Virus record (IMG/VR): IMGVR_UViG_3300030060_005193
Location: 1-56,791 of that record
Source of the DNA: a virus
Strand: one strand, 5' to 3'
DNA: 56,791 bases
Shown: piece by piece, positions 2,043 to 34,245 of the stretch
Layout of the letters: each line of letters starts with the position of its first letter
Numbering within the stretch: position 1 is the stretch's first letter
Notes under the pieces: generated by a model
The model's database searches: none
What the model was told of the DNA's origin: nothing
The model's input: only the letters and a program-made list of their open reading frames with translations
Program-made: the position numbers and the translations under genes

Positions 2043-2806
2043 TATAAATCTGAAATTTCTACAACCTGGACACCATCTAGGTTGTAGGGTTTAAAATCAT
2101 CTTGTTCTTTACATCTTAACAACAGCTCTAGTGCTTGTTCGTTTCTTGCTCTGGCATATTCCAATGCCTCATCGGATAAAGTATAAACACCAAATGGATA
2201 TGGATGTGCTTTTTCTTGTGCTAAGAAATTAAAACCATCTGCTCTTAATCCAGAGGCTCTACAACCGTCAACATATAGTGCTGCTTGCATGTGATAGTTA
2301 AAGTTATTAATAGCCGCTCTAAAACCTCTAGGTGAGGCATCACGGCATGTTTTAAGGTCCCAAACTCTTTCATTATCATACCAGTCCAATCTACATTTGA
2401 AAGGGTGGCCATGCCACTCAAACACAAGCGTTAGTTCTGCTCGGTCATTTTTTTTTGGCACATAGTCTTTTACAACATCACGTCTTTCAATACAGGTATC
2501 AAACATATCTTGTGTAACGGCTGTTCTATTACCTATGCTGGCCATAAAATCTTCATACTCTTCTTTGCCTGCTTTTGTTCTGCGGTCAATCTTTGGTTGT
2601 ATTACAAACTCATCATCAAACTTATGCAGCTCTAAAAAAACAGTGTGTTGCACTCGCCCTTCCAGCAGAGCTGGGGTCTGGACCATTTCTTTTTGATGTT
2701 TCCAGCTGTATGGGCATTTAATGACCGCTGTTAGGTCGTGAGACCTAAAGGCTGGTATCTCTGCATATTGTTCATAGGGTATGTCTTCATATATTCCTGG
2801 TTTCAT
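2039..2806 (-). CDS. PD-(D/E)XK exonuclease-like protein (exodeoxyribonuclease VIII-like)
   Basis: 255 residues from the ATG at 2806, chosen over an ATG 21 bases upstream because GAGGAG lies at the right distance from it. The opening GIYEDIPYEQYAEIPA is typical of the phage RecE/exodeoxyribonuclease VIII-like family. RLDWYD and WDLKT provide the Asp and D-x-K of a PD-(D/E)XK active site, and QAALY is the usual following helix. It probably resects double-stranded DNA ends for phage recombination or repair. It shares an operon with an SSB-like protein (3852), supporting a DNA recombination role. No recombinase partner was recognised. Confidence 0.75.
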   Translation of the reverse strand: MKPGIYEDIPYEQYAEIPAFRSHDLTAVIKCPYSWKHQKEMVQTPALLEGRVQHTVFLELHKFDDEFVIQPKIDRRTKAGKEEYEDFMASIGNRTAVTQDMFDTCIERRDVVKDYVPKKNDRAELTLVFEWHGHPFKCRLDWYDNERVWDLKTCRDASPRGFRAAINNFNYHMQAALYVDGCRASGLRADGFNFLAQEKAHPYPFGVYTLSDEALEYARARNEQALELLLRCKEQDDFKPYNLDGVQVVEISDLY

Positions 2807-3509
2807 TTTGTATCTCCTCAAATTCATTTTTGGTTATGCTGTGGCAATTAAGATTGCCAGCAACGGTTCTTCTTTCACCCTCACCCTTAAACGGATAGAC
2901 GCAGTGTTGCATCCAAGAGGGAAATAATAATAGTTTGCCTACCCCTGGTTTAATCATAACTTGTTGAGGTGGTCTTAATCGCTCTGGGTCCTTGCTTTGG
3001 TTTAAACCATAGGTAAAATTTATAAAGCCGTCTATGGCTCCAGAGCTGTCGTATAAACTTATATTTGTGTCATCATCTAGCTCGCCGATTTGTGGTGGCA
3101 CTTTGGTCCAGCAAGTAAAAGATATGCCCATCGGTGATGTCGTTAAGTGGTCGTGAATTGGATTGTAGTCGCCTGCAAAACTATGAACGGACCATAACTT
3201 ATCCACGTCAATTTTCTTGGAGACTAGAGGAGTTTTAGTTTGTTCCACAAAATGTCGTAGATAAGCAAGGCCCAAGCTTTCTACTATACTAACAAAAGGT
3301 TTGAGTATAGGCGATTGATAATCCATTATTATTTGTTCGCCTTGGTGTATTTGGCCTACCAAGTCAGGACCAGCCGATGTTCTGGAAGTATCATTTCTTA
3401 ATACATCTAAGTAGTTGTTTAGTCGCAGCACAGTATCATCATCAAGAATGTGTTGCATCATTAGTGCTGCTGGCAAAACCTGTAGTTCATATTCTATTTC
3501 GTTAGTCAT
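2787..3509 (-). CDS. 2OG-Fe(II) oxygenase, paralogue of 20439
   Basis: 240 residues. YNPIHDH supplies His119 and His121 as iron ligand candidates, His202 in PSWMQHCVYPF is the distal ligand, and Arg213/Arg214 in GERRTVAGNLN bind 2-oxoglutarate. This matches the 2OG-FeII_Oxy_5-type family common in marine phages. The gene at 20439 is a clear paralogue with the same residue numbering for these sites and identical stretches such as WTKVPPQIG and VYPFKG. It overlaps the exonuclease gene downstream by 20 bases and sits in the DNA-recombination operon, which hints at a nucleic-acid substrate; this is inference. Confidence 0.8.
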   Translation of the reverse strand: MTNEIEYELQVLPAALMMQHILDDDTVLRLNNYLDVLRNDTSRTSAGPDLVGQIHQGEQIIMDYQSPILKPFVSIVESLGLAYLRHFVEQTKTPLVSKKIDVDKLWSVHSFAGDYNPIHDHLTTSPMGISFTCWTKVPPQIGELDDDTNISLYDSSGAIDGFINFTYGLNQSKDPERLRPPQQVMIKPGVGKLLLFPSWMQHCVYPFKGEGERRTVAGNLNCHSITKNEFEEIQNETRNI

Positions 3510-9321: not shown

Positions 9322-9741
9322 ATGCCGATTAACTCCAGAAATAAAGGCGCACAATTTGAACGCGACATAGCAAAAATTTTAAATAATTTTTTTTCTGAAA
9401 ATAATATTGATTTTAAAACAAAACGTAACTTGGACCAGTACCAAGAAAAAGATTTATGTGATTTAGATATACCCTTTCATGCGGTTGAGTGTAAATTCTA
9501 TAAAGAAGGCGAATGGCTGAAACAAGCCTGGTGGAATCAAGTTTGCAGCTCCAGTAATGGTAGGATTCCAGCCTTGATATTTAAGTTCAACCGCAGACCC
9601 ATCCGAGTTTGCATACCCTTGTATGCTATGAACCTAGACTGGCCACAAGAAGATGACAAAATTTGCGTCATGTCTATTGAGGACTGGTTAGATGTTCTAA
9701 AAAAGAACTGGAGAAACTATGACAGCTACTTTAAAACCTAA
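9322..9741 (+). CDS. PD-(D/E)XK Holliday-junction-resolvase-like nuclease
   Basis: 139 residues. NKGAQFERDIAKIL at the start supplies the conserved Glu of the Hjc/VRR-like endonuclease fold, RNLDQYQEKDLCDLDIP the Asp, and HAVECK the E-x-K of the active site. The family resolves branched DNA before packaging. It overlaps the downstream oxygenase gene by 23 bases. Confidence 0.65.
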   Translation: MPINSRNKGAQFERDIAKILNNFFSENNIDFKTKRNLDQYQEKDLCDLDIPFHAVECKFYKEGEWLKQAWWNQVCSSSNGRIPALIFKFNRRPIRVCIPLYAMNLDWPQEDDKICVMSIEDWLDVLKKNWRNYDSYFKT

Positions 9742-10273
9742 TCACGGCGTAACTGGACTATCTATCACTCAAGATGAAGTAGATTTATTCTTAGATTACC
9801 TGGTTGAATCTGAACCTGTGCAGGCAAAAGTGCACGAAAGCGCTAAGGAAACAGCAAATACTGATATTCGTGATGCTGAAATACATTATATTGATGCTAA
9901 AGAGGACAGATTGTATAGAATCCTCAATAAAATAGCGGTTTCTGCTAACAAATACTTCAATTATGAGATAGATGGCATAGAAACAGCACAAATTATCCAC
10001 TATAAAGCACCGAGTAACGGCTATGGCTATCATATTGACATAGGACCCGACGGTACAGCTGCTACTCGCAAGATAAGTATGACACTTGCCCTTAATAATG
10101 AGTATGATGGCGGCGAATTATGCTTTAGGACTAGCGATAATGCTAGTTGCACGCGACCGCAGATAGGTGAAATAGTTGCTTTTAGCTCTTTTATCTCGCA
10201 CCAGGTCAAGCCTGTAACCAAAGGCGACCGATATGTCGTTGTTGCTTGGTTTACTGGCCCGCCGTTTCGCTAG
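9719..10273 (+). CDS. PKHD-type 2OG-Fe(II) hydroxylase (PiuC-like)
   Basis: 184 residues covering the whole compact catalytic domain. His105-x-Asp107 (GYHIDIG), His161 (ISHQVKPV) and Arg171 (KGDRYVVVAWFTGP) are the expected iron and 2-oxoglutarate ligands; NEYDGGELCF is the usual strand before the distal histidine. PiuC-like hydroxylases are widespread in marine phages. The overlap with the nuclease gene suggests joint expression. The substrate is unknown. Confidence 0.85.
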   Translation: MTATLKPNHGVTGLSITQDEVDLFLDYLVESEPVQAKVHESAKETANTDIRDAEIHYIDAKEDRLYRILNKIAVSANKYFNYEIDGIETAQIIHYKAPSNGYGYHIDIGPDGTAATRKISMTLALNNEYDGGELCFRTSDNASCTRPQIGEIVAFSSFISHQVKPVTKGDRYVVVAWFTGPPFR

Positions 10274-12895: not shown

Positions 12896-13554
12896 AAATA
12901 TTAATAGCCTGTGAAACCAGTGGAATTGTTCGTGAGGCTTTTCTTGCAGCTGGCCACAACGCTTGGTCGTGCGATATATTAAAATCAGACACATCAACAA
13001 ACAGACATATCCAGGACGATGTTAGAAACGTTCTTGTTATGGATGATTGGGATATGTTGATGGTTGCCCACCCGCCGTGCACTAGACTTTGTTTGTCGGG
13101 CGCTAGGTGGTATAAGGTTCCTCCACCAGGTAAAACATTAGAACAAATGGAGCAAGAACTAATAGATGGTTGCAAGTTGCTGTCTGACCTTTGGAACGCA
13201 GATGTGCCCAAAATTGCTATTGAAAATCCAATAATGTTATCCAGAGCAAGAAAAAAAATCCAAGAAATATCTGATAGAGAGTTTCCCTGGAACCCTACAC
13301 AATATGTTCAACCCTACGAATTTGCAGAAAGCATAGATGCAGAAGACAACATAACAAAGAAAACAAGTCTTTGGCTAAAGAACCTGCCGCCACTAATACC
13401 GACAGGAACGCTTACAAAAGAAACAGCTAGGGACGATATACACAAAGCACCTCCAGGACCAGATAGATGGAAAGTAAGAAGTAAGTTTCATCATGGCATG
13501 GCTAAAGCTATGGCAGAACAATGGGGTGGCAATTTAATTAAGGAGGCAGCATGA
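12892..13554 (+). CDS. DNA C5-cytosine methyltransferase-like protein
   Basis: 220 residues from GTG 12892, chosen for the AAGGAGG directly upstream. ILIACETSGIVREAFLAAGH is a motif I-like SAM site; HPPCTRLCLSG contains the Pro-Cys (Cys63) used as the nucleophile in C5 methylases; IAIENPI replaces the usual ENV motif. It is short compared with stand-alone Dcm enzymes (~300-470), and no separate target recognition domain is evident. This compact family is common in phages. It could methylate phage DNA or modify free nucleotides; the chemistry is inferred from motifs. Confidence 0.65.
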   Translation: MKILIACETSGIVREAFLAAGHNAWSCDILKSDTSTNRHIQDDVRNVLVMDDWDMLMVAHPPCTRLCLSGARWYKVPPPGKTLEQMEQELIDGCKLLSDLWNADVPKIAIENPIMLSRARKKIQEISDREFPWNPTQYVQPYEFAESIDAEDNITKKTSLWLKNLPPLIPTGTLTKETARDDIHKAPPGPDRWKVRSKFHHGMAKAMAEQWGGNLIKEAA

Positions 13555-14339
13555 TTGAACCAAGAAAGCAAGTAAACAATATCTATGGCTATATCAGAGT
13601 ATCATCTGAGCAACAGGCCAAAGACGGCTCTTCACTTGAGGAGCAAAAGAAATCTATTGAGCAGTTTGTTGCAAGCAAATACAACGGTCGCAAGGTAGAT
13701 AAGTTTTTTACTGACGCTGGCATTAGCGGCATGAAGCCTTTACTAGAAAGACCAGGCTCCAGAGAGTTGACCGATGTCATGGACAAGCATGATGTAATAA
13801 TAGCAACCAAACTAGACAGACTTGCTAGGTCTTTTTTAGAAATGGTTAATATGATACCAACGCTTGAAGAGTCAGGCATCACACTTTATTTTTGTGATAT
13901 GTTTGGTGATATACCAGTTGTTTTGCCCAAAGAGACAGAAAAGACAGGTCTTGAGGCCAAAATGGATATGACCAGAATTGCAAACCAACAACTGATAACT
14001 AATATGGCTATGTTTGCCGAGATAGAAAGAGAAACGATTATGTCCAGGCTAAACGGTGGCAAGTTAGTTTATGCGGAAAAAGGCTACTCAATCGGTGGTC
14101 AAACACCCTTTGGCTATAAGAAAGAGTATGATAACTCTGGTAGCAGACGCAGAACTAAGCTAGTACCGATACCAGAAGAGCAAGCGGTGTTAAAACATAT
14201 CTATGCTTTACGAGCTAAAGGACTAGGAGCTAGAAAGATAGCGAAACAGATACAAAGCTTACATCCAGGCTATGAGGAGTTTCCGTATCACAAGGTCCAC
14301 AGGATTTTACAAAGAAAATTCCAAGGCCTGCACGAATAG
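13551..14339 (+). CDS. Serine recombinase (resolvase/invertase family)
   Basis: 262 residues. YGYIRVSSEQQ carries the catalytic serine (Ser18) and Arg16; TKLDRLARS is the conserved Arg-containing helix, and MAMFAEIERETIMSRLNGGK the E-helix. Residues ~195-262 form a small recombinase-type DNA-binding region (ARKIAKQIQ, HKVHRILQ). The ATG has AAGGAGG and overlaps the previous gene by four bases. It could integrate the phage, invert a segment or resolve multimers. No repressor or obvious att core is seen, so a temperate lifestyle is not shown. Confidence 0.85.
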   Translation: MIEPRKQVNNIYGYIRVSSEQQAKDGSSLEEQKKSIEQFVASKYNGRKVDKFFTDAGISGMKPLLERPGSRELTDVMDKHDVIIATKLDRLARSFLEMVNMIPTLEESGITLYFCDMFGDIPVVLPKETEKTGLEAKMDMTRIANQQLITNMAMFAEIERETIMSRLNGGKLVYAEKGYSIGGQTPFGYKKEYDNSGSRRRTKLVPIPEEQAVLKHIYALRAKGLGARKIAKQIQSLHPGYEEFPYHKVHRILQRKFQGLHE

Positions 14340-16868: not shown

Positions 16869-19800
16869 ATGGCAACCTATGTAAACGATTTAAGACTTAA
16901 AGAAATAGGCACAGGTGAGTCTAGCGGTACCTGGGGAACAGAAACCAATACTAACCTAGAGCTTATAGCGGAGGCCTTTAGTTTTGGCACCGAGGCGATT
17001 ACTACCAATGCAGACACTCATACCACAACAATAGCAGACGGGTCTACTGACCCTGGACGTTCACTTTATTTAAAATATACAGGTACTCTTGATAGTGCTT
17101 GTACTATTACTATTGGACCAAACACAGTATCTAAACTTTGGTTTATAGAAAACGGAACATCTGGCTCACAAAACATTATTATTTCACAAGGCAGTGGTGC
17201 AAGCATAACCATACCCGCTGGCCATGTAAAAGCTATATATTCAGACGGAGCTGGTTCTGGTGCAGCTATGGTAGATGCCTTTACTGATTTAAACTTAGCA
17301 GGAACCACTACAGTTGACGCTTTAAATGTAAGCGGAGCATTGACAGGTTCAAGCACCATACAAGGTACAACTATTACTGCAACTACAGCATTTGTTCCAG
17401 ATGCTAGTGACGGAGCTGCTTTAGGTACAACATCATTAGAATTTAGTGATTTATTTTTAGCAGACGGTGCAGTTATAAATTTAGGTGATGACCAAGACAC
17501 CACCCTTACTCATGTTGCAGATACAGGCATACTTTTAAATAGCACAAGACAATTACAGTTTGGTGATTCTGGAACTTATATACATCAATCAGCAGATGGA
17601 GTATTAGACTTAGTATCTGATACTGAAATAGAGATTAACGCTACAACTATTGATATGAATGGTGCAGCAGATGTATCTGGTGCTTTAACTGCTGGAACTA
17701 TAAATGGCGTAGGTATATCTTCTAATATATCTAACTTTTCACAAAGTATTCTTATTAGTCAAGATGCGGGTACGGGTACTTTATCTACAGCCTCTAATAA
17801 TACAGGCTTAGGGTATGAAGTTTTTAATGTGCTTACTTCTGGTGATGATAATACTGGTCTTGGTCGTAAAGCATTTTTAAATTTAACAACTGGTACTGAT
17901 AATGTTGCTATTGGTTCTGGAGCTATGGCAGACACTACAACAGGTTCTTCTAATACTACTGTAGGAAAAAATGCTGGTTCAGGCATAACCACAGCAGATA
18001 ATAATACAGCAGTTGGAGCTAGTGCTTTAGCAGTAAACACCACAGGTGTAAAAAATACAGCCTTCGGTGCTTTTGCGTTAGATGCTAACACCACAGCTGA
18101 AGAAAACACAGCAGTTGGATATAACGCATTAACAGACAACACTACAGGACACTCTAATGTTGCTATAGGTTCAGATACTTTAGCAAATAATACTACTGCC
18201 AACCACAACACAGCAGTTGGTAGAGAAGCTATGATAACTAATACCACAGGTGCTAGTAACACAGCTTTGGGCAGACAGGCTTTACAAGCAAATACAACAG
18301 CAAGTAATAACACAGCAGTTGGTTATCAATCTTTATACGCAAACACTACAGGCACAGAAAATGTTGCAGTTGGTAAAGGTGCTATGGACGCAACAACAAC
18401 TGGTGGTTACAACACAGCCGTAGGAACAGATGCACTAGGAGCTAATACCACAGCAACTTTTAATACAGCCATAGGCAGAAACGCTTTATTAGTTAATACC
18501 ACAGGTGCTTCTAATGTTGCTGTTGGTGGTCAAGCACTAGATGCTAATACGACTGCTTCAAATAACACAGCCGTTGGAACATCTGCTCTCGGTGCAAATA
18601 CCACAGGAGCATCAAATGTAGCTGTTGGAACAGATAGTTTACAACAAAATACTACTGCAGATAACAACACAGCAGTAGGTAAAGATGCTTTAAAAACAAA
18701 CACTACAGGTGCTTCAAACACGGCAGTTGGAGCTGTAGCTTTAGCATCTCACACCACAGCAAACAGTTGTACTGCAGTTGGTTATAATGCTCTAAACGCT
18801 AATACAACTGGTGCTAACAATACCGCTATTGGAGCAGGTGCATTAGATTTAAACACTACGGGAGCAAGAAATGTAGCAGTTGGTACAGCTGCTTTAGATG
18901 CTTTAACAACAGAAAATGACAATACTGCTATTGGTTATAATGCTTTAGGTGCAGAAACAACAGGATTCAGAAATGTTGCGGTTGGTTCAAATGCAGGTGC
19001 TACACAAAATACTGGAACAAATAACACCTTAGTTGGTTATAATTCTGGTACAGCAATTACAACTGCTGATGCAAACACTATTATAGGTTCAGATGCGGGT
19101 GATGCTTTAACAACTGGAGCAGATAATGTAGCTGTAGGACAAAATTCTTTAGGTGCAGCTACAACTTCCTCAAATAATACAGCAATCGGACATGATGCTA
19201 TGACTGCTAATACTGGCGGTTTTGATGGGGTTGCCGTAGGTAGTAATTCTTTATACAGTAATACAGGTGGAGAAAGATGTACTGCTGTTGGTATGTCATC
19301 TTTATATTCAAATTCAACTGCTAGTTATAATACAGCGTTAGGTGCATACTCTGGTTATAGCACAACTACAGGAGCACAAAATGTAGCATTAGGTTATGTT
19401 GCTCACTATGCTAATACTACGGGTGTAAGTAATGTAGCCATTGGTTATGCTGCATTAGACGCAGCGAATTCTAATGATAATGTTTGTGTTGGGCATAATG
19501 CTGGAACTGGTATTACCACAGGAGGTTCAAATACTTGTATAGGTTCTGCAGCAGGAGATGCGATTCAATCAGGAGCTTCTAATATAATTATTGGTGTAAG
19601 TTCAGATTGTCCACATGACGGCACAAATTGTATAGCTTTAGGTATTAATGTTGTAAATACTACTAATGACCAATTTAGCTTCGGTAAAGCCAGTAATGTT
19701 GTTTCTAATGTATTTACCTCTAACGCTAGTTTTTCAAGAAGTTCGGATTTACATAAAAAAACTAATATAAAAGATACAGATTTAGGTTTAAATTTTATTA

Positions 19801-20102
19801 ATGAATTAAAACCTGTCACATTTAATTGGAGACCTAATAGCGAGTTTCCAACACATTACAAAGATTATTCTGAAACAGAAAATCACATGGACACAGAAAC
19901 AAATCTGTATGGAATGATTGCACAAGATGTAGAAAAAGCATTAGATAAAGTAGGACATAAAAACTTTGGAGGTTGGTCAGAGGAAGAAGATGGTTCTCAA
20001 AGACTTTCACAAGAAATGTTTATATATCCTCTTATTAATGCAGTAAAAGAACTTTCTACGCAAGTAGAAGAATTAAAAGCTAAATTAAACAAAGGAGAAT
20101 AA
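16869..20102 (+). CDS. Tail fiber with repeats and S74-type chaperone domain
   Basis: 1077 residues. The N-terminus (YVNDLRLKEIGTGESSGTWG) is a typical virion-attachment region of marine phage fibers. A beta-rich stem (~130-300) follows, then ~33 copies of a 17-residue NTAVG..AL..NTTG repeat resembling YadA/Hia head repeats. The C-terminal ~110 residues are a peptidase S74 intramolecular chaperone: SRSSDLHKKTNI carries the self-cleavage Ser-Asp site, and LKPVTFNWRP, YGMIAQDVEK and a terminal coiled coil complete it. The domain trimerises the fiber and is then cut off. This is the probable receptor-binding protein. Confidence 0.9.
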   Translation: MATYVNDLRLKEIGTGESSGTWGTETNTNLELIAEAFSFGTEAITTNADTHTTTIADGSTDPGRSLYLKYTGTLDSACTITIGPNTVSKLWFIENGTSGSQNIIISQGSGASITIPAGHVKAIYSDGAGSGAAMVDAFTDLNLAGTTTVDALNVSGALTGSSTIQGTTITATTAFVPDASDGAALGTTSLEFSDLFLADGAVINLGDDQDTTLTHVADTGILLNSTRQLQFGDSGTYIHQSADGVLDLVSDTEIEINATTIDMNGAADVSGALTAGTINGVGISSNISNFSQSILISQDAGTGTLSTASNNTGLGYEVFNVLTSGDDNTGLGRKAFLNLTTGTDNVAIGSGAMADTTTGSSNTTVGKNAGSGITTADNNTAVGASALAVNTTGVKNTAFGAFALDANTTAEENTAVGYNALTDNTTGHSNVAIGSDTLANNTTANHNTAVGREAMITNTTGASNTALGRQALQANTTASNNTAVGYQSLYANTTGTENVAVGKGAMDATTTGGYNTAVGTDALGANTTATFNTAIGRNALLVNTTGASNVAVGGQALDANTTASNNTAVGTSALGANTTGASNVAVGTDSLQQNTTADNNTAVGKDALKTNTTGASNTAVGAVALASHTTANSCTAVGYNALNANTTGANNTAIGAGALDLNTTGARNVAVGTAALDALTTENDNTAIGYNALGAETTGFRNVAVGSNAGATQNTGTNNTLVGYNSGTAITTADANTIIGSDAGDALTTGADNVAVGQNSLGAATTSSNNTAIGHDAMTANTGGFDGVAVGSNSLYSNTGGERCTAVGMSSLYSNSTASYNTALGAYSGYSTTTGAQNVALGYVAHYANTTGVSNVAIGYAALDAANSNDNVCVGHNAGTGITTGGSNTCIGSAAGDAIQSGASNIIIGVSSDCPHDGTNCIALGINVVNTTNDQFSFGKASNVVSNVFTSNASFSRSSDLHKKTNIKDTDLGLNFINELKPVTFNWRPNSEFPTHYKDYSETENHMDTETNLYGMIAQDVEKALDKVGHKNFGGWSEEEDGSQRLSQEMFIYPLINAVKELSTQVEELKAKLNKGE
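17780..19600 (+). repeat. Tandem ~51-bp coding repeats in fiber gene
   Basis: Imperfect units of about 51 bp encode a 17-residue beta-strand repeat with core N(T/V)A(V/I)G and NTTG. Most differences between units are at third codon positions or at exposed residues, so the array is under protein-level selection. It offers many sites for unequal recombination. Confidence 0.8.
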
Positions 20103-20438: not shown

Positions 20439-21146
20439 ATGAATGAAGGTGAATTTCAAATTCATACTATGCCTGCGGTATATGTGCTAGAAACACAAAT
20501 GCCACAGCAAATGATTGATGATGTTAATGATTATATGGACGAGTATAGAGAAGATAAAAATAAAGAATCATTAGCAAAAACTTTAGTAGGACAAATAGAT
20601 AAAGGAGAACAATTACTGTTAGACCACAATGATAAAAGAATGGTTGAATATAATAATTTTATCTGTCAGCTTGGTGTTGAGTATATTAATCATTTTGGTA
20701 AGTCAGGCAATACTGTTAAAGGACCCAAACAAGTTCAGATAGATGAAACTTGGTCAGTACATAGTTACGATGGTGATTACAACCCCATACATGACCACGG
20801 CACTAAAACATTAATGGGCATATCTACTACAGCCTGGACTAAAGTACCACCACAAATAGGTAATGTTAATGCACAATCACCAACTTACTCTTTATATAAC
20901 GAAAGCGGACACTCAGACGGCTGTATAGCATTTCAATACGGACAAGTATCAGTTATAGACGGTGAAAGATTAAAACCAGCTCAATCATTTGTTATGACCC
21001 CAGAAGTAGGAAAACTATTAGTGTTTCCTTCTTGGTTACAACACATGGTCTATCCCTTTAAAGGTAAAGGAGAAAGACGAACTATAGCGTCAAACCTTAA
21101 TTGTTTTGATATAATAAATGAAAATGCTAGTAGCGAGGTAAACTAA
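20439..21146 (+). CDS. 2OG-Fe(II) oxygenase, paralogue of 2787
   Basis: 235 residues. YNPIHDH gives His118 and His120, PSWLQH gives His202 and KGERRTIA gives Arg213/Arg214. It shares long near-identical segments with the leftward oxygenase at 2787-3509, so one arose by duplication or the two were acquired from related sources. Here it sits between the fiber and the membrane-protein run rather than among DNA metabolism genes, so its target may be different (for example fiber or envelope proteins); this is speculation. Confidence 0.8.
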   Translation: MNEGEFQIHTMPAVYVLETQMPQQMIDDVNDYMDEYREDKNKESLAKTLVGQIDKGEQLLLDHNDKRMVEYNNFICQLGVEYINHFGKSGNTVKGPKQVQIDETWSVHSYDGDYNPIHDHGTKTLMGISTTAWTKVPPQIGNVNAQSPTYSLYNESGHSDGCIAFQYGQVSVIDGERLKPAQSFVMTPEVGKLLVFPSWLQHMVYPFKGKGERRTIASNLNCFDIINENASSEVN

Positions 21147-21854: not shown

Positions 21855-22240
21855 TGAACGATACTAGCGGCAGATTTGGTGGCGACATGGATAGAAATGA
21901 AGTAGAAATGGACTTAAATAAGTTTATGGCTATGATTCAAGAAATATCAGAACTTAAAGATAAAATAAGAGATTTAGAAGCAGACGATAAAGTTAATCCT
22001 CACCAAAAATGGATTCACTTAGCAAAAGCAGTAGATTCTTGGAGAATATTCCCAAGAATGTTTTTAACAGTTTATATAGTTCTTCTTTATAAATGCACTA
22101 TATGGTTTATGGCTTTGCCAGAGCCAAGTTTTGAACAATCAGGCCTTATATCTATTGTTGTAGGCGCAGGCGCAGCTTGGTTTGGTTTATATGCAGGAAC
22201 CACAAACTCATCAAAAGGTTTTAAAGGCGAAGATACCTAA
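21854..22240 (+). CDS. Two-span membrane protein, holin candidate
   Basis: 128 residues from ATG 21854 (TAATG overlap). An N-terminal acidic coiled coil is followed by two hydrophobic helices at about 72-88 (MFLTVYIVLLYKCTIWF) and 100-116 (LISIVVGAGAAWFGLYAG). The hairpin topology and its place in the membrane-gene run make it the best holin candidate, but no holin family is recognised. Confidence 0.55.
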   Translation: MNDTSGRFGGDMDRNEVEMDLNKFMAMIQEISELKDKIRDLEADDKVNPHQKWIHLAKAVDSWRIFPRMFLTVYIVLLYKCTIWFMALPEPSFEQSGLISIVVGAGAAWFGLYAGTTNSSKGFKGEDT

Positions 22241-22533
22241 TGGATGCTTTTGACCTTATAGAAAAGGTCGGATTACCAATAGCAAGCGGTTTAATAATGG
22301 GATATTTTATATTCCTAATTATGAAACAAATGATGACAGGCCTTGTCAACAAAATTAAAACAGTAGAAGGAATAGCAAAGATGCTTATTACTAGAGCATC
22401 AATAATGAATAACGATATGATTCGTATAGATACAAGCGTTTCTAGCGCTTTAAATTTAGCACCTGATTTAGATAGAATAGCCAGAGCAGAAAACTTTGTA
22501 GAAGATGGAAAGATAGACGCCAGAAGAGACTAA
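22240..22533 (+). CDS. Single-span membrane protein with cytoplasmic helix
   Basis: 97 residues: DLIEKVGLPIASGLIMGYFIFLIMK is an N-terminal transmembrane segment, followed by a helical tail (NNDMIRIDTSVSSALNL). It resembles the next gene product (same DxxxLIEKxG start, same DMIR segment), so the two are tandem paralogues. The start overlaps the previous stop by one base. Confidence 0.55.
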   Translation: MDAFDLIEKVGLPIASGLIMGYFIFLIMKQMMTGLVNKIKTVEGIAKMLITRASIMNNDMIRIDTSVSSALNLAPDLDRIARAENFVEDGKIDARRD

Positions 22534-22799
22534 TGGATGTAGTGGCGTTAATTGAAAAGTTTGGTTTTGCTACTGTAATGGTAGTAGGCTTAGGATATTT
22601 TGTTTATTACGTATGGGTTACAGTTACTAAAACAGTAGAGCCTGCTGTAAGTGAAATGCAAAAAACCATTATAAGACTTACTGACCAACTTCGCCTGTTA
22701 GACCAAGATATGATACGATTACAACAGAAAGTTAATACTGTATTAGAATTAAATGAAAAGCAAAAAGACAAAAAAAGAACTTCATCAAGAAGAAGCTGA
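22533..22799 (+). CDS. Single-span membrane protein, paralogue of 22240
   Basis: 88 residues. DVVALIEKFGFATVMVVGLGYFVYYV is the membrane segment, followed by a long coiled coil (LLDQDMIRLQQKVNTVLEL) and a basic C-terminus. Its last 47 bases overlap the CsgF gene in another frame, tying expression of the curli module to this membrane-gene run. Confidence 0.6.
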   Translation: MDVVALIEKFGFATVMVVGLGYFVYYVWVTVTKTVEPAVSEMQKTIIRLTDQLRLLDQDMIRLQQKVNTVLELNEKQKDKKRTSSRRS

Positions 22800-23265
22800 A
22801 AAAACTTTAATAATGAGGTTGTTAGTAGTTTTTGGTATTGCTATGTTTTTTGGTATATTTGCACAAAATTTATGGTCTGACCAAATAGTACATAAATTTA
22901 AGTCGCCTAGTTTTAATGGCGTAGGAACATCATCTCATTACTTAACCATAGAAAACCAAGAACACACTCGCAAACTTACTCTTAAAGAAGAGATAAAAGC
23001 ATTACAAGATGAAATAAAAAGAGAGAAAGAAAACTCTACACTTGCAAGATTTATGCGTAACCTTGAATCAAGAGTCTATGCAGAGTTGTCCAGGCAACTG
23101 GTTAATAATCTGTTTGGAGAAACACCGCAAAGCTCAGGTACAATAACACTTGAAGGCAACACCATTGAATACACAAGCGATGGCGTAACATTAACCCTAA
23201 TTATAACCGAGCAAGATGGAACAATTACTCAAATCGTTATCCCTATTGGTACTTTTACTTTCTAG
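22753..23265 (+). CDS. csgF: CsgF-like curli assembly factor
   Basis: 170 residues. FKSPSFNG (49-56) corresponds to the N-terminal FRNPNFGG of CsgF, the peptide that inserts into the CsgG pore neck. The C-terminal half keeps the family pattern (SRQLVNNLFGE, then a three-stranded region with TIEYTSDGVTLTLIITEQDG). It is longer than E. coli CsgF (~138): a lysine-rich cytoplasmic tail and transmembrane anchor (about 19-38) replace a cleavable signal, and a coiled coil (about 74-95) is inserted after the pore-binding peptide. In bacteria CsgF links the CsgG channel to curli nucleation at the surface. The overlap with csgG by 50 bases strongly supports the call. Confidence 0.75.
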   Translation: MKSKKTKKELHQEEAEKTLIMRLLVVFGIAMFFGIFAQNLWSDQIVHKFKSPSFNGVGTSSHYLTIENQEHTRKLTLKEEIKALQDEIKREKENSTLARFMRNLESRVYAELSRQLVNNLFGETPQSSGTITLEGNTIEYTSDGVTLTLIITEQDGTITQIVIPIGTFTF

Positions 23266-24121
23266 TTGCTCTACGTTTGACCAACTTGAAGACACTTATG
23301 AACATAGGTTTTCTGCTCATAATGTTGTAAATATTCAAGATTTACAATCTACAGAACTTCAAAATGTACCAATTCCAGAAGTTAGTCCAGTTGTAGCTGT
23401 ATATCCGACAGCTTTTACCGACCAAACTGGACAAAGAAAAAGCAACAGTGAGTTTGCTTTGTTTAGTACCGCAATAACTCAACAGCCTAATGCTCTACTT
23501 ATCAGAGCTTTAAAACACGCTGGTAATGGCCAGTTTTTTAGAGTAGTAGAGCGAGTAGGACTAGATAACTTAACCAAAGAACGACAGCTTATAAGGTCTG
23601 CAAGAGAGCAAACCGCTAGTGAAGATGAAAAAAAGAAAGCACTTAGACCATTGTTGTTTGCTGGTATTTTGATAGAAGGTGCCGTAATTTCTTATGAATC
23701 TAATTTAGAAAGTGGGGGTTCTGGTGCCAGGTATCTAGGAATAGGTAAGAGCGTTCAATACAGAGAAGACAACATAACTGTAAGTTTGCGCATGGTGTCA
23801 GTAGCCACAGGAGAAGTGTTATTAGAAGTATTAAGCCAAAAAACTATATTTAGCTACGGAAAATCTGAGGATATATTTAGGTTTATTGAGGCTGGGACCG
23901 AGCTAGTGGAAGTAGAAATGGGTAATGCAAGAAATGAATCATCAACCATAGCTTTAATGAAAGCTATAGAAGGAGGTGTGCTAGAAATCGTAAATGATGG
24001 TTATGAAAAGGGTTTCTGGATTTTACAAAACAATAACCAAGGAGTAGAATTAAATGATGAAGAAATTAAAATTGATAAGCCTGATTGTGATGCTGACTGC
24101 GTTGACAACATACGCGGCTGA
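23216..24121 (+). CDS. csgG: CsgG outer-membrane curli secretion channel
   Basis: 301 residues. A lipoprotein signal peptide with lipobox LSSC (Cys18) precedes a full CsgG domain. Diagnostic stretches are DQTGQRK, NLTKERQLIRSARE, AGILIEGAVISYESN, SGGSGARYLGIG, DNITVSLRMVSVATGEVL and IFRFIEAG, all colinear with E. coli CsgG (277 residues). Bacterial CsgG forms a nonameric outer-membrane pore that exports unfolded curli subunits. No CsgE, CsgB or CsgD was found, so the phage channel would work with its own CsgF and the curlin-like protein encoded next, which overlaps by 68 bases. A phage could use it for export, envelope permeabilisation or blocking competitors. Confidence 0.92.
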   Translation: MEQLLKSLSLLVLLLSSCSTFDQLEDTYEHRFSAHNVVNIQDLQSTELQNVPIPEVSPVVAVYPTAFTDQTGQRKSNSEFALFSTAITQQPNALLIRALKHAGNGQFFRVVERVGLDNLTKERQLIRSAREQTASEDEKKKALRPLLFAGILIEGAVISYESNLESGGSGARYLGIGKSVQYREDNITVSLRMVSVATGEVLLEVLSQKTIFSYGKSEDIFRFIEAGTELVEVEMGNARNESSTIALMKAIEGGVLEIVNDGYEKGFWILQNNNQGVELNDEEIKIDKPDCDADCVDNIRG

Positions 24122-24788
24122 TAATGAAATATATGTAGACCAATCTGGTACTGGAGCAAATATAGACCTAGAACAACTAGGTATATCTAATATTATTGGT
24201 GGGTTAAATTCAACGGCTGGTAGTTTAAATGCCTTTGATTTAGATGGTAACAGCATGACACTTGATATAAACATGATAGGTGCAACTAACAAGTTTCTTG
24301 GTGATATATTTGCTGATAATTTTACAGGATTTTATGAATTTGATGGCGGTACAAATTCATTTACTATCCAGGTTGACCCAACAGATACTTACAGCTCAGA
24401 TGGCTCTAATCAAAATGTAGATGTTACAGGAAGCGGAAATACTTTTACTTTAAATCAAGGTACCTCAGCACTTGCATCACAGCTTGATTTAGATTGGATT
24501 ATTCAAGGCTCTAACAACACAATAACTTCAAACATAAACATAGATGGAGCTACAAATTATATGGACATAGACGGGTCCGATAATAATGTTACATATACTG
24601 GAACTGGAGTATCAGCTAGTGCGGGTGGATATTTCTACCTTGACCACACAGGAGGTTCAAGAACGTTTAATATCCAACAACTTAGCACACAAGACAATGA
24701 CTGGCTTAAAATCATATCCATTTCTGGTACTGCTGCTTCTACTGTTTGCGTCGTTCAAAACGACCAAGGTACAAGCACAAGCTGTTGA
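24054..24788 (+). CDS. Secreted curlin-like protein
   Basis: 244 residues with a Sec signal peptide (MKKLKLISLIVMLTALTTYAA). The mature start has QSG and EQLGISN spaced like a curlin repeat (QxG...QxGxxN), followed by Asn/Gly/Thr-rich beta repeats (SNNTITSNINIDG, SDNNVTYTG) to the end. It is larger than CsgA (151) and its repeats are irregular, so it is a curlin-like or beta-solenoid protein rather than a clear CsgA. As the gene directly after csgG it is the obvious export substrate. Overlaps csgG by 68 bases and the FecR gene by 92. Confidence 0.65.
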   Translation: MMKKLKLISLIVMLTALTTYAADNEIYVDQSGTGANIDLEQLGISNIIGGLNSTAGSLNAFDLDGNSMTLDINMIGATNKFLGDIFADNFTGFYEFDGGTNSFTIQVDPTDTYSSDGSNQNVDVTGSGNTFTLNQGTSALASQLDLDWIIQGSNNTITSNINIDGATNYMDIDGSDNNVTYTGTGVSASAGGYFYLDHTGGSRTFNIQQLSTQDNDWLKIISISGTAASTVCVVQNDQGTSTSC

Positions 24789-25815
24789 TATTGGAGACAT
24801 ATCTGAATTAAATGGTACGGCACAAATTGTCAGAGATAAGCCATACGATGCAGATTTAAAGTTTGCGATACAAAGCAATGATGAGGCGATAACCAAAGAT
24901 GGTCGTATGGCTATTACCTTTCTTGATGATTCAACCGTAAAGCTAACTGAGCACTCGCAACTTTTAATAGATGAATACATTTATGACCCCGACCCAAGCA
25001 AATCTAAAATGGCCCTTACCTTTGGTCTTGGTACAGCAAGATTTATTACTGGTAACCTAAACCGTATAGATAAACAAAACATCACACTTAAAACACCTAC
25101 AGCCAACATAGCTATTCGTGGTACTGACTTTACTGCAACCGTTGATGAACTTGGGCGTAGTCTAATTATTCTTTTGCCAGATGCTTTTGGTTTATCTAGT
25201 GGCGAAATAGAAGTAGTTACTGCCATGGGAACTGTTTTGTTAAATAAACCTTATGAAGCTACGACAGTAAGTGTATTTGAGTCAGCTCCCACGAAACCAG
25301 TTATATTAGATTTAACTTTAGATGTTATTGATAACATGCTTATTGTTACACCACCGAAAGAAGAAGCAGTAATTGAAGAAGAGACAACAAGCACGCAAAC
25401 TGAAAGCGTGTTAGATTTTAATGACCTAGATATAGACTATTTAGCAGAAGATTATTTAAAAGATGATAGTTTAGAATTTACAGAGCTTGATATTAATTAC
25501 TTAGATGTAAACTATCTTGAAGATTTGCTAAATGTATTAGATGCTTTGGCTATAGACGAAGATGAAGACGCTTTAGCGCAAGCCACTAGCACACAAATAT
25601 CTGGCACTTTACTAGGACGGGACCCTGATACACAAATAACAACTCTTATAACAGGCAATTTGATTAGTATGCGAAGACAGGTCAATGAAAGCGTAAGGGT
25701 TGACTTAAACGGCTCTAACGCTTATACAGTAATATTAATACAAGATGGTATATCTAATGTTATTAAAATTAATGGAGGCAGCGATAGTATTATTACTATC
25801 ACTCAAAGTGATTAA
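24697..25815 (+). CDS. FecR-domain envelope protein with curlin-like tail
   Basis: 372 residues from ATG 24697, chosen because it begins a clean signal peptide (hydrophobic LVLLLLLFASF, then AQA cleavage). Residues ~30-175 form a FecR domain (NGTAQIVRD, RMAITFLDDSTVKL, TPTANIAIRGTDFTA), typical of periplasmic FecR-like proteins. An acidic linker with DYL/NYL repeats follows. The last ~34 residues contain IQDGISNVIKI and IITITQ, matching a curlin repeat and sharing QxGISN(V/I)I with the preceding curlin-like protein. In bacteria, FecR-domain proteins often sit beside CHASE2 cyclases, as here, suggesting that it senses or binds the exported polymer and passes a signal inward. Confidence 0.75.
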   Translation: MTGLKSYPFLVLLLLLFASFKTTKVQAQAVDIGDISELNGTAQIVRDKPYDADLKFAIQSNDEAITKDGRMAITFLDDSTVKLTEHSQLLIDEYIYDPDPSKSKMALTFGLGTARFITGNLNRIDKQNITLKTPTANIAIRGTDFTATVDELGRSLIILLPDAFGLSSGEIEVVTAMGTVLLNKPYEATTVSVFESAPTKPVILDLTLDVIDNMLIVTPPKEEAVIEEETTSTQTESVLDFNDLDIDYLAEDYLKDDSLEFTELDINYLDVNYLEDLLNVLDALAIDEDEDALAQATSTQISGTLLGRDPDTQITTLITGNLISMRRQVNESVRVDLNGSNAYTVILIQDGISNVIKINGGSDSIITITQSD

Positions 25816-27567
25816 ATGAAACGACTATTATTACCTGTGCTTATAATACTGTCTTTACCATTACTATTTCAAAGCACGCCAACAGAAATATTAAAACTCA
25901 AAACTTTTGATGCTTTAATACAAACACCAGAAGAATCAAGTAACTTTGTCATACTTAACATAACAGAAGAAGATGTAGAACGTGAAGGGGGTTGGCCCTT
26001 ACCTAGACAAAGATTAGCTGAAATACAACTGCAAATATTAGGTAAAGGTGCTGTTGGCGTTGGCTGGGTTATTAGTTTTCCACAAGCGGATAGGATGGGA
26101 GGTGATGAAGATTTTGGAAGGTCTTTAGGCTACGCTCCATCCGTAATAGCTATGTTTGAAGACGGTCAGGGTAAATATCCAGAATCAACTGGCACAGTTG
26201 TCATGGGTAATGATAATGGTGGTATAGTATCAATGGGAGTTAAGGAAAATCTTAACACTCTTAAAAATAATACATTACAAGGTTTAGCCGTTGCTCCCAC
26301 TGACTTAGACCAACTTGTCAGAAGAATACCTTTATTAGTAAAAACCCCTGAAAACGAGTGGATTCCTAGTTTTGGCACACAAATATATAAAGCTTTATTT
26401 AATGTTAAAACTTATATTATAAAAACTAATGATAATGGAATATCAGAAATATCAATAAGAGGAATACCACCTGTTAAAACAGATAGTCTTGGTCGCAAAT
26501 GGATTAGTTGGGTAGATACGCCACAAACAGATTTACAAGAAATGGCAGTAAATGGCAAGTTTGTGTTTGTTGGTGTTACTGCAAATGGCGTGATGCCACA
26601 AGTAGCTACTCCAGTTGGATTGCTAGAGCCACACAAGATTCAAGCAGCACTTGCAGAATCAATATTAATACAAGATAGTCCTTTTATACCTGATTGGGCA
26701 ATAGCGGTAGAGCTTGTTATATTTTTAGTTACAGTAAGTCTTATATGGCTTGTTTTAATACGCTTTGGGATTACATGGGGAATTATATTAGGCTTGGGAA
26801 TTATGGTTTCTACTGGCTATCTTGGATATTATCTTATAAAAACAAATTTGCTTGTTGATGTAACCTGGTCTTTAATTTCACAGTTTATTACAGGAACTAC
26901 AGCATTTTACATAAGATTTAGAGAGCAGTTTAAGTTAAGACTGCAAATTAAAAAACAGTTTGAACATTATCTTGACCCACGACAAGTTAAAAAATTACAA
27001 GATAATCCTGATTTGTTAAAACTTGGCGGCGAAAAAAAATACTGCACGTTCTTGTTCACCGACGTTAGGGGGTTTACAAATTTGTCCGAGAAGTTAGAGC
27101 CTGAACAGGTAACAGACATAATGAATAAAGTATTAACTGCACAAGTCACTTGCATACAGGCACATAAAGGAATGGTAGATAAATTTATAGGTGATTCATG
27201 TATGGCAATATTTGGAGCACCATTAGATTTAGACGAACACGAAAAAAGAGCAGTAGCTTGCGCCCAAGATATGCGTACTGCAATTACACAGCTACAAAAA
27301 GAATTGCCAGAGCCAGTAGCTATTGGTATAGGTGTAAACTCTGGCGAGGCAGTAGTGGGTAACATGGGTTCTAATACAAGGTTTGATTTTTCTGCTATTG
27401 GCGATGCAGTAAATGTTGCTGCAAGACTAGAGTCTGCAACAAAAGAAGCTGGTGTTGACATCTTAATTGGTAAAAATACTGCAAAAAATTGTAAAAATGT
27501 ATTAAAATTACCAAAACCTATTAAAGTAAAAGGTAAAACGAAGGCTTTACAAATATGGACAGTTTAA
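25816..27567 (+). CDS. CHASE2-domain class III adenylate cyclase
   Basis: 583 residues. An N-terminal membrane anchor and a periplasmic CHASE2 sensor domain (about 25-285) are followed by three transmembrane helices (about 297-315, 318-340, 346-366) and a cytoplasmic cyclase domain (about 408-580). Active-site residues are all present: metal ligands Asp416 (FTDVRGF) and Asp460 (GDSCMAIFG), adenine-specifying Lys456 and Asp530, and transition-state Asn533 and Arg537 (VNVAAR). Lys plus Asp predicts ATP to cAMP. The gene starts directly after the FecR stop and ends one base before the spanin gene. A full sensor cyclase is highly unusual on a phage. Confidence 0.92.
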   Translation: MKRLLLPVLIILSLPLLFQSTPTEILKLKTFDALIQTPEESSNFVILNITEEDVEREGGWPLPRQRLAEIQLQILGKGAVGVGWVISFPQADRMGGDEDFGRSLGYAPSVIAMFEDGQGKYPESTGTVVMGNDNGGIVSMGVKENLNTLKNNTLQGLAVAPTDLDQLVRRIPLLVKTPENEWIPSFGTQIYKALFNVKTYIIKTNDNGISEISIRGIPPVKTDSLGRKWISWVDTPQTDLQEMAVNGKFVFVGVTANGVMPQVATPVGLLEPHKIQAALAESILIQDSPFIPDWAIAVELVIFLVTVSLIWLVLIRFGITWGIILGLGIMVSTGYLGYYLIKTNLLVDVTWSLISQFITGTTAFYIRFREQFKLRLQIKKQFEHYLDPRQVKKLQDNPDLLKLGGEKKYCTFLFTDVRGFTNLSEKLEPEQVTDIMNKVLTAQVTCIQAHKGMVDKFIGDSCMAIFGAPLDLDEHEKRAVACAQDMRTAITQLQKELPEPVAIGIGVNSGEAVVGNMGSNTRFDFSAIGDAVNVAARLESATKEAGVDILIGKNTAKNCKNVLKLPKPIKVKGKTKALQIWTV

Positions 27568-33625: not shown

Positions 33626-33808
33626 ATGGACGATATACAACTAATTGAAAAAATAAAAAGAACTATATCTGAAAGAGAAGAGCAAATACAAGAAACATTA
33701 ATGTCTGGTGGATTAAAAGATATTGAACATTATAAGTATTTGCAAGGAGAGCTTTCTGCTTTATACTATATTGCAAACGCAATAAGTGACATAGGCAAAG
33801 ATATATGA
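33626..33808 (+). CDS. Small helical protein
   Basis: 60 residues, a single charged helical hairpin (LIEKIKRTISEREEQIQETL, YLQGELSALYYI). Starts directly after the AT-hook gene and overlaps the GroES-like gene by four bases. Function unknown. Confidence 0.6.
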   Translation: MDDIQLIEKIKRTISEREEQIQETLMSGGLKDIEHYKYLQGELSALYYIANAISDIGKDI

Positions 33809-34245
33809 CAGATGTGCAAAAAAATAACGTAATGGCAAAAAAATTAGCAGAGGCTTACGTTGAACCAGATGCAATAGTGTTGGACCCAGAAAAATTAGAT
33901 AAATCAATTTTAGATAGGATGCCACAACCAACAGGTTGGAGAATGTTAGTTTTACCTTATGCTGGTAAAGCAAAAACAGAAGGTGGTATTTTACTTACAA
34001 AACAAACAACAGACCGTGAAGCGCTAGCTACAGTTGTAGCTTATGTGGTTAAAAAAGGCCCGCTTTGCTACAATAATAAAAACCGTTACGGAGATAGTCC
34101 GTGGTGTGAAGAAAAACAATGGGTTTTAATAGGGCGTTACTCTGGCTCTAGGTTTAAACTTGAAGATGGTGCAGAGGTTAGAATTATCAATGATGATGAG
34201 GTTATAGCCACCATTCTCAATCCAGATGATATAGTGAGCTTATGA
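33805..34245 (+). CDS. GroES-like co-chaperonin
   Basis: 146 residues. PTGWRMLVLPYAGKAKTEGGILL covers the first strands and mobile loop of the GroES/Cpn10 fold (KTEGGILL matches the IVL-type GroEL contact), and FKLEDGAEVRIINDDEVIATI is the C-terminal strand pair. A 40-residue N-terminal extension and a longer roof loop distinguish it from host GroES. Phage co-chaperonins such as T4 gp31 help GroEL fold the capsid protein; the place between portal and capsid genes agrees. Confidence 0.8.
   Translation: MTDVQKNNVMAKKLAEAYVEPDAIVLDPEKLDKSILDRMPQPTGWRMLVLPYAGKAKTEGGILLTKQTTDREALATVVAYVVKKGPLCYNNKNRYGDSPWCEEKQWVLIGRYSGSRFKLEDGAEVRIINDDEVIATILNPDDIVSL

Follow-up and report, generated by a model that had tools for sequence, protein, structure and literature searches.

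A type VIII secretion (curli) system (T8SS) module of pelagiphages was described in 2022 by Wittmers et al., who found the order CsgF–CsgG–CsgA/B–FecR–(CsgA/B)–adenylate cyclase in pelagimyophages as well as in nine genomes of the HTVC023P type (PMC9599517). These authors propose an alphaproteobacterial origin and roles in superinfection defense, sibling capture or import, and expression of module genes in metatranscriptomes has been reported (PMC9599517). Here we analyze an ocean virus through its entire IMG/VR record IMGVR_UViG_3300030060_005193, whose 56,791 nucleotides are called the window below. The window carries csgF, csgG, a curlin-like gene, fecR and a CHASE2 class III cyclase gene, collinear at positions 22753–27567 in one tight operon, and is a further member of the module described in 2022. 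The initial annotation knew of no description of a complete chain from export through sensor to cyclic AMP (cAMP) on a phage; that claim falls, since the same module, in the same order and phage group, is in PMC9599517. The two also agree in the short gene or genes before csgF, in the place of FecR after the curlin and in the cyclase as last gene. The published module often has a second curlin gene between FecR and the cyclase, whereas the window has none. What we add is the tail of FecR, a missing cAMP receptor and a bacterial counterpart.

The myophages HTVC008M and Melnitz (KC465899, MZ577097) have csgF–csgG–curlin–fecR–(curlin 2)–cyclase, as in the window apart from the second curlin (PMC7029224, PMC9004378). 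The csgFG part was discussed by Zaragoza-Solas et al. (PMC7029224) and Buchholz et al. (PMC9004378), the latter proposing a role in lysis. The HTVC008M record annotates CsgF, CsgG, a CsgB-like protein and an adenylate/guanylyl cyclase in module order, and the Melnitz record also FecR. Compared to these two phages, the FecR of the window is 35–37% and its cyclase 33–34% identical. Their modules differ from that of the window in the second curlin protein and in the adjoining baseplate genes. In HTVC008M, this second curlin protein (L002:6583–7905), annotated as hypothetical, combines a PA14 domain (2.7e-6) with curlin repeats, which suggests an adhesive fiber.

Among bacterial systems, alphaproteobacterial curli operons (PMC3521004) share with the phage module CsgF, CsgG and curlin without CsgC, CsgD and CsgE. 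The Burkholderia BiofilmReg operon (response regulator–LysM/FecR–CHASE2 histidine kinase), disruption of which abolishes biofilm, pairs a periplasmic FecR with a CHASE2 membrane sensor as the phage module does, but its output is a kinase and response regulator instead of a cyclase, and curli genes are absent (PMC5192318). CHASE2 cyclases of S. meliloti respond to a protein signal via an outer-membrane barrel (PMC13001267). FecA/FecR/FecI signaling has the periplasmic FecR domain in common with the window protein, but not the sigma-regulating N-terminus or the partner sigma factor.

The five genes in the window

By portal similarity, the carrier is an HTVC023P-type podovirus, because its portal is closest to those of HTVC023P (47% identity), HTVC027P (47%) and 023Pt_psg01 (45%). 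The five genes overlap or touch and are therefore probably co-transcribed. Their Pfam matches all exceed the curated cut-offs: CsgF (PF10614, E 2e-14), CsgG (PF03783, E 7e-46), FecR (PF04773, E 4e-9), CHASE2 (PF05226, E 8e-27) and Guanylate_cyc (PF00211, E 2e-21). Profile search thus bears out the CsgG, FecR and CHASE2 domains on which the initial annotation was built, and the module is real, with its open reading frames (ORFs) as first called except for the start of FecR.

The csgF gene (22753–23265, plus strand, as are all genes of the module) encodes a homologue of the surface adaptor of the CsgG pore. It matches phrog_35372 (E 2e-42) and is 41–42% identical to CsgF of HTVC008M and Melnitz; a search of its profile against the PDB returned no CsgF chain at E 0.1. 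The csgG gene (23216–24121) encodes a homologue of the outer-membrane lipoprotein pore, with the lipobox LLSSC in its sequence, and the phage CsgG profile matches the solved E. coli CsgG at E 2e-67. By homology, the CsgG pore and CsgF adaptor of the T8SS are both present.

The third gene (24057–24788, in an ORF called from 24054) encodes a curlin-like secreted protein with a signal peptide, beta-rich repeats and a conserved C-terminal C..Q..C. It is homologous to the HTVC008M product annotated as CsgB (tblastn E 1e-5). A Pfam search of the window's protein gave no match, Curlin_rpt included, and the cut-off of Curlin_rpt is passed by its relatives in Melnitz and Caulobacteraceae. The motif Q-x-G-x-x-N is found in 117 of 126 distinct homologues. 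Its AlphaFold model is all-beta, with a predicted local distance difference test (pLDDT) score of 80. The curlin-like protein is likely a substrate of CsgG. A fold match of the model to CsgA fibrils, tried as a candidate, was not significant.

The FecR tail and the cyclase active site

FecR (24697–25815; phrog_37870) is a predicted periplasmic protein composed of a signal peptide, FecR fold, acidic linker and curlin-like tail. Its start most likely lies at 24697 (MTGLKSYPFLVLL..., signal peptide) instead of 24586, the start of the longest ORF, which puts 37 extra residues ahead of the signal peptide; the gene therefore overlaps the curlin gene by ~92 bp. The predicted structure shows a signal helix, the FecR fold, an acidic linker of low confidence and an uncertain tail, and matches the periplasmic domains of the anti-sigma regulators PupR and BDI_1681 (E about 1e-4). 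The protein begins with its signal peptide and has no cytoplasmic sigma-regulating N-terminus, and no sigma factor (FecI) or TonB receptor partner is found within the module.

The C-terminus of FecR, 32 residues long (25717–25812; NAYTVILIQDGISNVIKINGGSDSIITITQSD), is similar to curlin repeats and to the ends of the curlin-like proteins. A terminal strand motif, hydrophobic-x-hydrophobic-x-Q, closes each of the 108 distinct phage FecR tails. Of 120 FecR tails, 106 contain the curlin signature Q-x-G-x-x-N, compared to a single one of the 120 FecR bodies, which total about 40,000 residues, and 1 of 93 FecR proteins away from curli genes. On bacterial genome contigs, the terminal motif is present in seven of eight FecR proteins from curli modules, the eighth (L215) having ambiguous bases, and in none of 73 that do not adjoin curli genes. 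The motif test was devised after the tails had been inspected, and many of the phage sequences are closely related. Independent support comes from FecR of HTVC008M, Melnitz and the Caulobacteraceae operon described below, which are only ~35–39% identical and share the ending. Since all phage FecR proteins checked end in a curlin-like tail and those away from curli genes do not, FecR is probably tied to the exported fiber.

The cyclase gene (25816–27567) encodes a CHASE2 domain at about 25849–26733 and a class III nucleotide cyclase domain at about 27037–27549, the best solved homologues of which are adenylate cyclases. Its active-site residues are Asp416, Lys456, Asp460, Ser526, Asn533 and Arg537, so that all class III adenylate cyclase positions are occupied as expected. 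The two metal-binding Asp, the adenine-specifying Lys and the transition-state Arg are invariant in 142 distinct phage cyclases. The transition-state Asn is altered in 1 of the 142, and 141 have Ser or Thr at the second adenine-contact position. The one deviation found at each of these positions would fit the Melnitz cyclase, which carries both changes.

Because the active-site residues are kept in 141 of 142 phage cyclases, the alignment indicates that the cyclase is under selection for catalysis, with ATP as the predicted substrate, and its product is probably cAMP. The chain of export, envelope sensor and cyclase is genuine gene content of the phage, and the active site of its cyclase is intact. 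In the Melnitz cyclase (L003:7917–9968), the transition-state Asn is replaced by Ser and the adenine-contact position by Asp. That enzyme may thus be inactive or altered, which bears on the reported absence of a phenotype for Melnitz.

Relatives in phages and bacteria

Relatives are abundant in viral contigs, with at least 562 CsgG stretches and at least 577 FecR stretches. A search of viral and bacterial genomes for the ordered set recovered it in HTVC008M, Melnitz, many viral contigs and two Caulobacteraceae metagenome-assembled genomes (MAGs). The order csgF–csgG–curlin–fecR–cyclase is nearly invariant in podoviruses and myoviruses, with a split or doubled cyclase match in two loci. A chimeric join of host and phage DNA, a doubt raised at the outset, now has a negligible probability: one contig with a 95% identical CsgG and many others have the same order with phage genes on both sides of it, and this order recurs in both isolates, HTVC008M and Melnitz, and in scores of independent contigs flanked by phage genes, which rules such a join out.

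Two small membrane proteins are encoded directly ahead of csgF, both on the plus strand. The first (22240–22533) has 97 residues, with one predicted transmembrane helix and a helical tail, and belongs to phrog_18771; the second (22533–22799), of 88 residues, is its paralogue in the same PHROG. At least one phrog_18771-type protein immediately precedes csgF in each of the 95 loci examined, podoviruses and both myophages alike, and two copies do so in 30. The initial annotation treated these genes as holin candidates, and Wittmers et al. label the short, diverged genes before csgF as HK (PMC9599517). Pfam and PHROG profile searches gave neither genes' product a match to a histidine-kinase family, so that identity is rejected. 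Nor did the small proteins match a holin family, the lysis PHROGs giving only weak Rz-like coiled-coil scores. They are better described as membrane proteins conserved with the module than as proven holins, and look like accessory components of it. The HK genes of PMC9599517 are probably the same small membrane proteins, the disagreement being over the label.

The two Caulobacteraceae MAGs (L216, L217) carry csgF–csgG–curlin–curlin–fecR–CHASE2 cyclase, with no small membrane protein directly upstream of csgF. Bacterial genes flank both operons but are not shared: one has glycosyltransferases, an S9 peptidase and a TonB receptor beside it, the other a metallophosphatase, an amidohydrolase and an acyl-CoA dehydrogenase. 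The operon looks like a chromosomal, bacterial version of the module. It is rare, occurring in 2 of 299 genomes of the family. FecR and cyclase were stated to lie outside bacterial T8SS operons (PMC9599517), and the Caulobacteraceae operon is an exception to that statement. Unlike the phage module, the 29 other alphaproteobacterial csgFG loci sampled lack both FecR and cyclase out to about 8 kb. In a CsgG tree, the two MAGs branch apart from the phage clade; as support for the root and key branches is weak, the tree does not decide the direction of transfer between phages and Caulobacteraceae. Module-bearing contigs were also seen in MAGs labeled Flavobacteriaceae, Pirellulales, Neomarinimicrobiota, Maricaulis and Pelagibacter (L211, L212, L213, L214, L215, L218, L220). 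Most of these other bacterial contigs look like phage contigs misbinned into MAGs.

Nucleotide cyclases were sought in a SAR11-family sample of 79 genomes, the family of a Pelagibacteraceae single cell, many of them incomplete. Class I cyclases were found in none of the 79, and a class III cyclase scored above the cut-off in only two. One of these sits on a phage contig carrying the module, and the other is 31% identical to that of the window. SAR11 single-cell genomes have a CHASE2 protein of their own (L227:5617–10602), whose output is a SpoIIE phosphatase; after it come an uncharacterized protein of 438 residues and a FecR protein of 191. CHASE2 proteins of this size are present in 9 of the 79 genomes.

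Elsewhere in the window, a protein of 1077 residues (16869–20102) with many degenerate NTTASNNTAVG-type repeats, resembling the head repeats of trimeric adhesins, is likely a tail fiber. A resolvase-family serine recombinase is encoded at 13551–14339 (3e-26), and this phage group is usually regarded as lytic. Three separate 2OG-Fe(II) oxygenase genes (2787–3509, 9719–10273 and 20439–21146) are found in this single 57-kb phage. A Cpn10-like co-chaperonin (33805–34245; 1.2e-6) lies between the portal and capsid genes, and no Cpn60 was recognized among the scanned ORFs.

Function of the module

The best explanation, to which we give a probability of roughly 45%, is that the module exports curli to form surface fibers and that FecR and the CHASE2 cyclase sense this export. 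By homology, CsgG and CsgF would form an outer-membrane pore that exports the curlin-like protein, giving surface fibers on the infected cell. The curlin-like tail of the periplasmic FecR would probably contact curlin subunits or the CsgG vestibule, replacing the missing CsgE gate. FecR would then relay the export state to the inner-membrane cyclase through the enzyme's periplasmic CHASE2 domain, and its intact active site would yield a cyclic nucleotide, probably cAMP. The benefit would most likely be a fiber-dependent surface change, either superinfection exclusion or cell aggregation, and the cyclase would serve as a feedback sensor. The observed domains, their order and conservation, the intact active site, the tail resemblance and the match of the FecR fold to cell-surface signaling domains support this reading; the pore, the export, the periplasmic FecR and the inner-membrane cyclase are what family knowledge would predict. 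The sensor half has precedents in the Burkholderia FecR–CHASE2 biofilm operon and the S. meliloti CHASE2 cyclases.

Several observations weigh against export sensing. Melnitz-infected cells showed no clumping (PMC9004378), although the Melnitz cyclase has the altered active-site positions given above. The model of the curlin-like protein has no significant fold match in the PDB, and the FecR tail is not confidently folded in its model (pLDDT about 60). Pfam finds Curlin_rpt in 1 of 23 FecR tails, weakly (E 0.016), so the tail assignment is drawn from motif statistics instead of a profile. SAR11 is itself a presumed host. Finally, a cNMP-binding domain, as in CRP-type cAMP receptors, was not found in 75 of the 79 SAR11-family genomes or in any of 20 module-bearing phage records, HTVC008M and Melnitz included; many of these genomes and records are partial sequences, and both searches would miss receptors of another fold. 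The proposed complete chain to cAMP thus has no visible end point.

The pair of FecR and cyclase could be separate from export, for example as a general envelope-stress sensor beside functional fibers. We consider this unlikely though worth weighing, since FecR lies near a CHASE2 protein in many bacterial loci devoid of curli genes, among them that of the CHASE2–SpoIIE protein near FecR in SAR11. The curlin-like tail, however, is confined to FecR of curli modules, and different phage families keep the five genes in one order. The initial annotation also raised lysis timing. In such a reading, the CsgGF pore would be repurposed as a gated secretin or pinholin, as was proposed for Melnitz (PMC9004378), and FecR and the cyclase would report the envelope state to trigger lysis. 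Among podoviruses, 72 of 88 loci have an endolysin no more than 3 kb downstream, and 34 of 88 a recognized spanin. In HTVC008M and Melnitz, however, DNA-replication genes flank the module on one side and baseplate genes on the other, and no lysis gene is annotated nearby, which weakens both this reading and the lysis cassette as a fixed context. Because both myophage modules neighbor baseplate genes, the proximity to lysis genes looks like a feature of the podovirus insertion site instead of a conserved functional link. A pore-only lysis role also needs no curlin, and the subunit is retained in all lineages seen, so that lysis timing appears improbable.

More doubtful still is import of nutrients or cofactors (iron siderophores, vitamins) through the pore, with FecR as an iron-related regulator. 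Nutrient uptake has been suggested (PMC9599517, PMC7029224), and the phage modules are without the CsgE gate. An import pore, however, needs neither curlin nor CsgF, and the FecR protein, without a sigma-regulating N-terminus or a FecI/TonB receptor partner in the module, ends in a curlin-like tail.

Within the export-sensor reading, a more specific and tentative version, which we hold to be rather unlikely as a whole, makes FecR a substrate-mimicking sensor. Its tail, in the CsgG channel or on the growing fiber, would replace CsgE and couple amyloid export to the cyclase, and the nucleotide would act via an unrecognized receptor, proposed because the SAR11-type host and the phages are without CRP-type receptors. 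The absence of known cAMP receptors sharpens the question of what the cyclase is for. With its conserved curlin-like tail, FecR provides a concrete and testable link from export to signaling within the module. If the substrate-mimicking version is true, the phage would impose a second-messenger system on a host family that is mostly without one.

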